A stretch of DNA of 64,000 nucleotides from positions 620,001 to 684,000 of the forward strand of contig NZ_BMGA01000001.1 in assembly GCF_014639535.1 (NCBI RefSeq). Direction: 5' to 3'. How positions within the stretch are numbered: the stretch's first letter is position 1; each line of letters opens with the position of its first letter. A model generated the notes under the pieces. That model saw only the letters and a list, made by a program, of their open reading frames with translations, did not search any database and was not told the origin of the DNA. This document shows positions 58,328 to 59,329 of this stretch, one piece after another. The position numbers and the translations under genes were made by a program. The DNA comes from Flavobacterium palustre. GTDB lineage: Bacteria; Bacteroidota; Bacteroidia; Flavobacteriales; Flavobacteriaceae.

Positions 58328-58355
58328 AAAAAATGGAAAAAATTTCGTTTTTTGT

Positions 58356-58385
58356 TTGTCACATTCAAAAAACGTCTTATATTTG
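58356..58385 (+). promoter_or_regulatory. Promoter of tRNA-Asn copy 1
   Basis: TTG (58356-58358), 19 bases, then TATATTTG (58378-58385): an exact match to the Bacteroidota sigma promoter. The same elements with the same spacing stand before the second copy. Confidence 0.85.
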
Positions 58386-58461
58386 CATCCGCTAAGAACA
58401 AACTTTCACAGCTGAAATTTAGCAAACAAACACGTTCCTTACGCATATTAAATATACAGTT

Positions 58462-58535
58462 TCCTCCTTAGCTCAGTTGGTTAGAGCATCTGACTGTTAA
58501 TCAGAGGGTCCTTGGTTCGAGCCCAAGAGGGGGAG
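58462..58535 (+). tRNA. tRNA-Asn (anticodon GTT), copy 1
   Basis: A full cloverleaf is visible. The acceptor stem pairs TCCTCCT with AGGGGGA, the D-arm is GCTCAGTTGGTTAGAGC, the anticodon stem encloses loop CTGTTAA with anticodon GTT (58496-58498), and the T-arm is CTTGGTTCGAGCCCAAG. The discriminator is G58535 and the CCA end is not encoded. A long leader (58386-58461) precedes it and a terminator follows. The mature part is identical to the copy at 59215. Confidence 0.96.
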
Positions 58536-58545
58536 CTTTTTTTAG

Positions 58546-58577
58546 AAAGCCATTCAAGAAATTGAGTGGCTTTTTTT
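58546..58577 (+). terminator. Terminator of tRNA-Asn copy 1
   Basis: A 12-bp stem (58546-58557 with 58562-58573, one G-U) with a GAAA tetraloop is followed by a T-run. It separates the tRNA from the nuclease gene. Confidence 0.88.
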
Positions 58578-58602
58578 GTTTAAACTTATTGACGAGAATC
58601 GT

Positions 58603-58887
58603 ATGCACTTTGTTTACATTATTTATTCTTCAGATAAAGATACTTTCTACATAGGTGAAACTTCAGATACTGAACTTCGATTGCAATGGCACAACTCTGG
58701 TATATTTGAAAACTCATACACTAAAATAGCCAATGACTGGGTATTATTTCATATTATTGAATGTACCGATATTTTTCAAGCAAGAAAAATAGAGCGACAC
58801 ATAAAAGACATGAAAAGCAAAACATACATTTCTAATCTCAAAAAATATCCTGAAATTTCCGAAAAACTACTACTTAAATATCGTTAA
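58603..58887 (+). CDS. Small GIY-YIG nuclease
   Basis: A 94-residue protein from the ATG at 58603; a TTG upstream would give a longer, less typical start. The catalytic core is VYIIYS (first Tyr), FYIGET (second Tyr), an Arg in ELRLQWHNSG and a Glu in QARKIERHIK. It is the minimal UvrC/homing-endonuclease-like fold without DNA-binding extensions. Its TAA stop (58885-58887) lies within the GTTAA of a tRNA-Asn 3' half that follows in the same orientation. Its expression signals are not obvious. Confidence 0.88.
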   Translation: MHFVYIIYSSDKDTFYIGETSDTELRLQWHNSGIFENSYTKIANDWVLFHIIECTDIFQARKIERHIKDMKSKTYISNLKKYPEISEKLLLKYR

Positions 58888-58937
58888 TCAGAGAGTCCTT
58901 GTTCCGATAGCTATCGGAACGAGCCCAAAAGGGGGAG
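58883..58937 (+). pseudogene. Decayed 3' half of tRNA-Asn
   Basis: Starting at the anticodon GTTAATCAGAG, the sequence matches tRNA-Asn to the acceptor end (GGGGGAG) with point changes (GAGGG to GAGAG, AAGAGG to AAAAGG). A 20-bp perfect palindrome, GTTCCGATAGCTATCGGAAC (58901-58920), replaces the T-loop region. It lacks a 5' half, so it cannot be a tRNA. It overlaps the stop codon of the GIY-YIG gene. Confidence 0.8.
58901..58920. repeat. Perfect 20-bp palindrome in the tRNA remnant
   Basis: GTTCCGATAGCTATCGGAAC is an exact palindrome inserted in the T-arm of the tRNA remnant. Palindromes of the CGATAGCTATCG type are frequent REP-like elements in Flavobacterium. Confidence 0.7.
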
Positions 58938-58948
58938 CTTTTTTAAAG

Positions 58949-58982
58949 AAATCCAGTTTATTCATTTAGACTGGATTTTTTG
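58949..58982 (+). terminator. Terminator-like hairpin after the tRNA remnant
   Basis: A 9-bp stem (58949-58957 with 58970-58978) followed by a T-run, in the position of the terminator behind tRNA copy 1. Confidence 0.65.
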
Positions 58983-59000: not shown

Positions 59001-59030
59001 CCAGGTTCGAGTCCGCCGCGGCGGAGAAGC
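59001..59030 (+). pseudogene. Third tRNA T-arm-like fragment with a palindrome
   Basis: CCAGGTTCGAGTCC (59001-59014) has the T-arm look, but the expected acceptor half is replaced by the 14-bp perfect palindrome TCCGCCGCGGCGGA (59012-59025), followed by GAAGC and a T-run as after tRNA copy 1. It may be another decayed tRNA 3' end, less certain than the copy at 58883. Confidence 0.4.
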
Positions 59031-59041
59031 TTTTTTTTTAG

Positions 59042-59074
59042 AAAAGACTATCAGCAATGATGGTCTTTTTTTTT
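59042..59074 (+). terminator. Terminator-like hairpin
   Basis: An 11-bp stem (59042-59052 with 59059-59069, one wobble) then a long T-run. It follows the third tRNA-like fragment. Confidence 0.7.
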
Positions 59075-59119
59075 GCGCTAAACTTTCTGAATTCTATTAG
59101 CAATTAACAACTCTTTTGT

Positions 59120-59149
59120 TTGCCACATTCAAAAAACATCTTATATTTG
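59120..59149 (+). promoter_or_regulatory. Promoter of tRNA-Asn copy 2
   Basis: TTG (59120-59122), 19 bases, then TATATTTG (59142-59149). It matches the promoter of copy 1 almost base for base. Confidence 0.85.
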
Positions 59150-59214
59150 CAACCGCTAAGAGTTAATTGCTCTGGCAAACAAATACGTTCCTTACGCATA
59201 TTAAATATACAGTT

Positions 59215-59288
59215 TCCTCCTTAGCTCAGTTGGTTAGAGCATCTGACTGTTAATCAGAGGGTCCTTGGTTCGAGCCCAAGAGGGGGAG
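59215..59288 (+). tRNA. tRNA-Asn (anticodon GTT), copy 2
   Basis: The mature region is identical to the copy at 58462-58535, including acceptor stem, anticodon GTT and T-arm. The promoter, the part of the leader from GTTCCTTACGCATATT onward and a terminator are also shared, so whole transcription units were duplicated. No CCA is encoded. Confidence 0.96.
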
Positions 59289-59297
59289 CCATATTGG

Positions 59298-59329
59298 AAA
59301 AGCCATTCTTCAGAATGGCTTTTTTTGTT
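59298..59329 (+). terminator. Terminator of tRNA-Asn copy 2
   Basis: An 11-bp perfect stem (59298-59308 with 59313-59323), loop TTCA, and a T-run. Confidence 0.88.

Follow-up and report, generated by a model that had tools for sequence, protein, structure and literature searches.

The window analysed in the present study, a 64,000-nucleotide stretch of Flavobacterium palustre DNA, contains an intact tRNA-Asn(GTT) gene called by ARAGORN (no. 1; 58462..58536, plus strand). It is followed on the same strand by a terminator-like hairpin recognised by eye (T1; 58546..58577), a GIY-YIG nuclease ORF of 94 aa with an ATG start and a match to PF01541 (58603..58887), and a partial tRNA-Asn copy running from the anticodon to the 3' end (58883..58938; repeat search, fragment score 27.2). 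This succession of tRNA-Asn, terminator, GIY-YIG gene and 3' copy of the same tRNA had been proposed in a first-pass annotation, and it was confirmed by ARAGORN, the PF01541 match and the repeat search. The TAA stop codon of the nuclease gene (58885-58887) is the TAA of GTTAATC in the tRNA copy beginning at 58883, so the earlier claim that the stop codon comes from the tRNA copy also stands; at the other end of the ORF, a longer form with a TTG start at 58576 is possible. In the repeat search, the partial copy appeared as two 25-nt pieces, with 88% and 96% identity, which are split in the T loop by a perfect 18-bp palindrome, TTCCGATAGCTATCGGAA (58902..58919). The palindrome, unmentioned in the first-pass annotation, replaces T-stem/T-loop nucleotides of the copy. 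Between the window repeats there is no ORF of at least 50 aa other than the nuclease, and no integrase gene in the unit. The neighbouring tRNA genes were called intron-less by ARAGORN, in agreement with the earlier remark that no intron is left at the site.

Behind the partial copy, and also on the plus strand, lie a second terminator-like hairpin (T2; 58949..58981), a second and more decayed partial copy consisting of a T-arm piece with no ORF left (59001..59030), and a third terminator-like hairpin (T3; 59043..59074), all recognised by eye. Inspection of the sequence revealed the palindrome TCCGCCGCGGCGGA inside the second remnant (59012-59025). A second intact tRNA-Asn(GTT) gene called by ARAGORN (no. 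2; 59215..59291, plus strand) has the same 75 nt as no. 1 and is followed by a terminator-like hairpin (59299-59326), without a nuclease behind it. The plus-strand leader of no. 1 (58350..58397) is repeated, with 94% identity, at 59114-59161 before no. 2. Among the 26 perfect loop-less palindromes of at least 12 nt in the 64-kb window, only two contain CCG/CGG, and both are inside its two partial tRNA copies.

The window ORF matched PF01541 with 50.1 bits, the cut-off being 22.6. The putative catalytic residues Y5, Y16, R26, H30 and E64 were invariant in 13 aligned sequences; in 30 sequences, Y5, Y16, R26 and E64 remained invariant and H30 was at least 90% conserved. We presume that the two Tyr and the Arg, His and Glu have the catalytic roles usually assigned to them in GIY-YIG enzymes. 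The structure model of the protein had a pLDDT of 95.6, and its best fold matches were UPF0213 BH0048, Slx1 and I-TevI, with weak E-values of 0.005-0.14, none of them below 0.001. The nearest solved relatives by sequence were UPF0213 proteins, SLX1, UvrC and I-TevI. The likeness to UPF0213 (BH0048, 1zg2; EF2693, 1ywl) was the closest, these being the best sequence matches among solved structures and BH0048 also the best fold; no paper containing "UPF0213" together with "tRNA gene" was found in a search of the open-access literature. A length of 94 aa would leave little room for a separate DNA-binding domain. The nuclease gene is under purifying selection: dN/dS was 0.04-0.2 in most unsaturated nuclease pairs, with exceptions at 0.29 and at 0.53-0.84, the latter being comparisons between the two Pro lineages described below. 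The window protein had no match in phage and plasmid collections (tblastn, E 0.001).

The genome of F. palustre has nine PF01541 matches, seven of them in short open frames, and four of these seven short-frame nucleases are located directly behind a tRNA gene, namely Met, Val, Asn and Phe; on our own reading of its sequence, the tRNA-Met appears to be of the initiator type. At all four loci a partial copy of the same tRNA lies behind the gene, each with a CCG...CGG hairpin. This association of tRNA, nuclease and partial copy in the genome is not a chance one. Among 48 ARAGORN tRNA calls with at least 300 bp downstream, including one pseudo-Val copy and one unassigned call, same-tRNA fragments scoring 15.5-29.5 within 900 bp downstream were found only behind nuclease-bearing genes (two Met with one common fragment, Asn and Phe), and the other calls scored at most 12. 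The Val copy was masked in this test because it is itself called as a tRNA by ARAGORN. The nuclease-flanked tRNA-Phe is the only tRNA-Phe in the 48-call list, and besides the occupied tRNA-Val gene there is another with the same sequence that carries no unit.

A search of 41 genomes of the genus, in which short matches among those listed were taken with their flanking stretches, revealed two kinds of small GIY-YIG genes. Kind A lies behind a same-strand tRNA or tRNA remnants, and kind B is without a tRNA within 1.5 kb; the genus matches listed do not include genes that are weak or decayed, for instance the one in G018. In the genus tree, kind A was split from kind B at 100/98 support, and kind A was grouped by tRNA type, with 7 changes for 8 groups, which is the minimum, and with Pro in two places. 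This tree contains 107 proteins from 119 ORFs, leaving out one long protein, ORFs shorter than 70 aa and all rows of L056, which repeats L084; six loci without an adjacent called tRNA were labelled by hand from their partial copies. The profile A1 matched 91 of 246 genomes of the order and 184 of 296 genomes of the phylum (E 1e-12; the kinds are unsorted in these counts and B is possibly included), and only the best matches of the order and phylum searches were taken on as loci. A scan with the window protein alone gave 63 named loci, from taxa that include Flavobacterium sufflavum, F. pokkalii, Gelidibacter, Winogradskyella, Leptobacterium, Algoriphagus, Pedobacter and Lacinutrix.

When units with an identical gene and identical 60-bp flanks were counted once, ARAGORN called a same-strand tRNA beside the ORF or heading its array for 143 of 172 kind-A ORFs and for none of 61 kind-B ORFs. 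The flank taken was about 1.5 kb per gene, and the absence of a tRNA refers to that flank. The tRNAs of kind A were located within 1.5 kb upstream (132) or within 200 bp downstream (12), one ORF having both, and no opposite-strand tRNA was found near ORFs of either kind. Because the kind-A model was built from tRNA-linked genus loci, only the loci from L197 onward, which were not used for it, form an independent test; a tRNA was present beside 104 of their 122 ORFs and at 81 of the 96 loci. Among the 29 kind-A ORFs without a tRNA, 13 have flanks shorter than 1.4 kb upstream or 0.3 kb downstream, and 16 do not. The anatomy of kind A is thus shared by many families of Bacteroidota and involves at least ten tRNA types, and the earlier description of a unit with a nuclease as its sole gene, lying between an intact tRNA and a partial copy, holds for many relatives. 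GIY-YIG genes without any tRNA fragment, which the first-pass annotation named as evidence against its proposal, do exist in kind B; however, kind B is a separate clade.

Nuclease lineage and tRNA type agree beyond shuffled expectation. A second tree of 122 proteins from 133 loci, one per locus, required 25 label changes for 11 amino acids, the shuffled mean being 82, and this clustering of labels is inflated by near-copies. The second tree excludes identical proteins, proteins shorter than 70 aa or longer than 140 aa, and loci without a label. Its loci without an adjacent tRNA were labelled by a fragment scoring at least 20, so that a few distant ones, such as L221, are probably mislabelled, and L223 was labelled Met by hand.

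The partial copies were scored with the 28 tRNA types of the window's genome as references and the 61 kind-B ORFs as controls. A fragment above every control, the kind-B maximum being 13.0 as compared with 27.2 for the window copy, was found at 105 of the 143 tRNA-linked kind-A ORFs, and 96 of these fragments agreed with the neighbouring tRNA in amino acid. No fragment above control was found at the other 38, partly because distant tRNAs differ from the references used. The overlap of stop codon and tRNA copy that had been noted at the window recurs often, the nuclease stop codon being a tRNA-derived triplet in 36 of 80 loci with a clear copy, though at several tRNA positions and not at one. 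ARAGORN calls the palindrome-bearing partial copies at L004 (1733-1808), L200 and L223 tRNA-Glu, tRNA-SeC or tRNA-Gln. Within a locus, the terminators T1 and T2 had a median identity of 0.82 (n = 68), and for terminators from different loci with the same tRNA the figure was 0.67. Recombination between the repeats would produce such a difference.

The position of the palindrome was expressed in tRNA numbering for those rows in which it was detectable by a search rule that selects paired stems. The palindrome is located at 28/44 in Ala, where it replaces the anticodon arm (8/8 rows), at 29/44-45 in Val (11/14 rows) and at 57/61 in Phe (5/5 rows), and its right edge is at 44 in Arg(TCT) (8/8 rows) and at 45 in Pro(TGG) (5/5 rows). 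At tRNA-Asn there are three positions: 54/56 for TTCCGATAGCTATCGGAA, common to the six rows of its lineage, the window included; 46/50 in another lineage (7 rows); and 15/17, in the D loop, in the mirror form described below (6/7 rows); the Asn rows L236 and L242 fit none of them. At tRNA-Met, 37/48 (8 rows) and 36/40 (9/20 rows) belong to two nuclease lineages. The palindrome thus mostly has one tRNA position per nuclease lineage, so that its address goes with the nuclease lineage and not with the tRNA type; L207, in which the palindrome lies elsewhere than in its weakly supported clade, is an exception. By the search rule, a palindrome was present in the partial-copy region of 103 of 143 ORFs and absent from 40, and the controls gave 3 of 61 for kind B and 19 of 94 for stretches upstream of the neighbouring tRNA. 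The first-pass annotation had placed the junction, and with it the insertion point, in the anticodon loop. However, the start of the copy varies among relatives with the same nuclease type while the palindrome mostly stays put, so the anticodon loop is probably not the insertion point.

The palindrome also occurs away from tRNA genes. The sequence CCGATAGCTATCGG has 47 sites in the window's genome, of which only the window's is within 1 kb of a tRNA match, and it is present in 13 of 118 genomes of the phylum, the window's genome included; in G104, both sites are inside its Asn unit. Some of the dispersed CCGATAGCTATCGG sites cap a terminator-like hairpin, as at L024, or form part of a dispersed repeat, as at L026; L019 is another site. 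Among 20 palindrome-centred regions of other genomes, 18 are without a called tRNA or nuclease, and of these 18 only L329 has tRNA-like copies; only L310, L318 and L329 of the 20 are in tRNA-type units or relic-like. At L329 (1440-2100), tandem units of about 270 bp contain a nearly full tRNA-Leu-like sequence with the palindrome in the T loop, one copy being variant; this stretch has no GIY-YIG match, and the array is perhaps a non-coding derivative. At L318 (1475-1580, minus strand), a partial tRNA-Met copy with two hairpins lies behind two tRNA-Met genes, with no GIY-YIG match there. At L310 (1434-2253), a tRNA-Met tandem array has the palindrome inside each of three nuclease genes, with profile matches in two overlapping frames. 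In G342, the palindrome splits nuclease frames. That the palindrome is a mere random repeat can be rejected only in part, its position being steady and yet its dispersal elsewhere real.

In a mirror form of the unit, a leader is followed by the 5' part of a tRNA with TCCCGATAGCTATCGGGA in the D loop, the gene and an intact tRNA-Asn. In Gelidibacter, Winogradskyella, Leptobacterium and others, the intact tRNA-Asn begins 2-6 bp after the stop codon. Eleven ORFs were assigned to this form, seven at Asn and one each at Pro, Phe, Arg and Cys. A gap of 19-139 bp separates gene and tRNA at the Phe, Arg and Cys loci, and at the last of these the upstream sequence is too short to show the 5' part. Furthermore, arrays of at least three units, each consisting of gene, partial copy and terminator, occur at Pro, Val, Asp, Arg, Phe and Met with a repeat unit of about 0.35-0.4 kb. 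They are mostly headed by one called tRNA, L090 and L106 having only a tRNA 3' end at the head. Judging by the regular spacing of match rows, G202 may have seven units and G079 eight.

The gene beside the window tRNA-Asn is presumably rseP, judged from its HELGH motif, and this rseP/tRNA-Asn neighbourhood is conserved, with a tRNA-Asn at 26 of the 28 loci listed. Of the 26 sites, 22 were unoccupied, as judged from at most 120 nt behind the last tRNA (four sites reach the contig end sooner), those of G000 and G004 were occupied, and those of G018 and G008 were decayed. Empty sites, which the first-pass annotation had suggested comparing in sister strains, exist in sister species, the unit being missing from most of the orthologous tRNA-Asn sites. 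G018 has a broken gene with a decayed copy, and G008 a palindrome-bearing copy without a gene; a fragment without a gene had been named as counter-evidence if found at unrelated places, and the G008 fragment lies at the same site. The rseP/tRNA-Asn sites of G009 and G033 are also occupied. In the occupied G000, G009 and G033, the tRNA-Asn has the same 75-nt sequence as many empty sites, and only the partial copy is altered. In G004, the occupied tRNA-Asn has acceptor-stem changes on both sides, of which the 3' side is common to the partial copy, and the variant also occurs in several empty sites. An altered intact tRNA as a means of self-protection was looked for in the genus loci and was not found. 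With an unaltered intact tRNA, the enzyme would be expected to cut the gene of its own host; the second, identical and unoccupied tRNA-Val of the window's genome points the same way, and there is no obvious self-protection.

Comparison of the terminators with those of empty sites gave a mixed picture. In G004, the 34-nt terminator behind the partial copy is that of the empty G006, as expected if T2 is native and T1 imported, and its other terminator resembles that of G015 (0.91); however, the sequence that follows tRNA-Asn in the empty G005 and G017 is similar to T1 of the window (0.93 and 0.89, respectively). Gain and loss of the unit are thus not distinguishable by terminator likeness.

On balance, we lean towards the view that the window holds one copy of a family of minimal selfish elements living at Bacteroidota tRNA genes. 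The unit would comprise a terminator, a small GIY-YIG gene and a partial tRNA, usually with a palindrome, and an intact tRNA would stand beside it or head the array. By analogy with SegB, the phage enzyme discussed below, each nuclease lineage is predicted to recognise one arm of its own tRNA gene and to cut the DNA there, at the address of the palindrome. A break in an unoccupied tRNA gene would be repaired from an occupied copy, by which the missing tRNA half, the terminator, the gene and the partial copy would be installed and the tRNA left functional. The palindrome at the cut position of the partial copy may block cutting there, a lock that would be needed because a cut in the partial copy would let the repeats of tRNA half and terminator anneal, deleting the gene. 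Recombination between the same repeats would generate the tandem arrays, and a cut in the intact tRNA, which has no such repeat on its other side, could feed array growth. The proposed action is like that of a free-standing homing endonuclease, but we do not file these genes as such, because the occupied target is unaltered and cleavage is a prediction, on which the agreement of nuclease lineage and tRNA type bears only indirectly.

As a tentative proposal with slightly less than even odds of being right, the units could represent a new class of mobile elements, namely phylum-wide, integrase-free, one-gene parasites of tRNA genes. Each lineage would be specialised on one tRNA arm, a 3' or 5' half-tRNA would keep the host gene alive, and the swapped-in palindrome at the cut site would prevent self-excision. 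The same logic may extend to the sister clade, and kind B is possibly the same design at other targets.

Nuclease identity correlated with rseP identity (r = 0.55, 57 pairs) and was the higher of the two in 15 pairs, rseP being one marker; nuclease divergence thus partly tracks the host, suggesting that transfer is not frequent and spread not rapid. This correlation would also fit an account that we regard as unlikely, in which each tRNA type acquired the unit on one or a few occasions, when a tRNA region was duplicated in tandem around a small nuclease gene, the unit was then inherited vertically and often lost, and the palindromes are dispersed repeats collecting in dead tRNA copies. The tandem tRNA copies at the window site, the nuclease-less remnants and the dispersal of the palindrome elsewhere can be read in the same way, but such an account leaves the steady palindrome position across families and the purifying selection on the gene unexplained. 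It also fits poorly with the two distant nuclease lineages at tRNA-Pro, which are 28-42% identical in genomes whose rseP are 66-81% identical, and with the Val nucleases of G000 and G005, which are closer than rseP at silent sites (pS 0.37 vs 0.58). With regard to horizontal transfer, the outcome of the rseP comparison was mixed.

Somewhat less probable again is action at the RNA level, in which the protein, a toxin or a defence nuclease, would attack tRNA or precursor tRNA, and the co-transcribed partial tRNA with its swapped arm would be an uncuttable decoy or autoregulator. The anticodon arm of the Val, Ala, Arg and Pro copies is not lost but exchanged for a different hairpin, so that an RNA hairpin could persist; the rule that picked these palindromes selects paired stems, and at least at L112 the hairpin is imperfect. 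Enzymes that cut tRNA in defence do exist, Septu being an example in the available part of one source (PMC13096335). However, action on RNA does not require a gene beside its own target gene, alike terminators, or empty and occupied alleles, and it explains self-targeting no better. SLX1, UvrC and I-TevI, which are among the nearest solved relatives of the window protein, are DNA enzymes. It is very improbable that the window is the relic of a tRNA-targeting integrative element, with attL and attR left after loss of an integrase island: integration classically leaves a direct repeat of a tRNA 3' half next to the intact gene, but the repeats of the window, to which the integrase check applies, enclose no ORF of at least 50 aa besides the nuclease, and such a relic does not predict a one-gene unit at many tRNA types, the palindrome, the arrays or the mirror form.

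The proposed element family can be compared with several known systems. tRNA genes are docking sites of large integrase-borne islands, and integrative elements use them as attachment sites, restoring the tRNA 3' half. The window unit is like them in being bordered by an intact tRNA and, at the opposite end, by a 3' remnant, and unlike them in its lack of an integrase, its array unit of about 0.35-0.4 kb, the palindrome in the remnant and the mirrored 5' form. REP palindromes with their RAYT transposases and the Rickettsia palindromic elements are short genome-dispersed palindromes, some of them inside genes, whereas the location of the palindrome described here is linked to a GIY-YIG gene and a tRNA arm. 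The closest parallel is SegB of phages T4 and T6, a free-standing GIY-YIG homing endonuclease whose cleavage, according to the available text of a 2026 paper, peaks inside tRNA genes with no favoured isotype (PMC13096335). In an excerpt of a 2010 review, the SegB target is given as the tRNA intergenic region (PMC2988022). According to the same part of the 2026 paper, a tRNA segment is amplified in tandem only if SegB has a working active site, and recombination genes are likewise required (PMC13096335). SegB is thus similar to the present family, as we propose it to act, in being a GIY-YIG enzyme beside tRNA genes that cuts in tRNA genes and is linked to recombination-driven tandem amplification, and its motif as given there, RAWTSGAAC, looks like the T loop read from the other strand, that is, the arm bearing the window's palindrome. 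It differs as a phage gene in a tRNA cluster, and the available text reports no partial tRNA copy, palindrome or mirror form (PMC13096335). The window protein also differs from SegB in its 94 aa and one predicted domain.

No description of the design of tRNA, nuclease and palindromic partial tRNA was found in the open-access literature searched. If the proposed reading is true, few autonomous mobile elements would be smaller than this unit, which has a single-domain nuclease and a length of about 0.35-0.4 kb. The many natural pairs of enzyme lineage and predicted cut site, given by the palindrome position, make specificity, self-protection and the origin of the palindrome family directly testable. 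For genome annotation, the palindrome-bearing partial copies are a source of false tRNA calls.

Long direct repeats without tRNA sequence often border kind-B genes (L034, L045, L110, L002 and others). The flanking repeats of 27 of the 61 kind-B ORFs scored above all 180 cross-locus controls. By eye, the L034 repeat looks like the 3' end of a protein gene, and other kind-B loci have dispersed inverted repeats.
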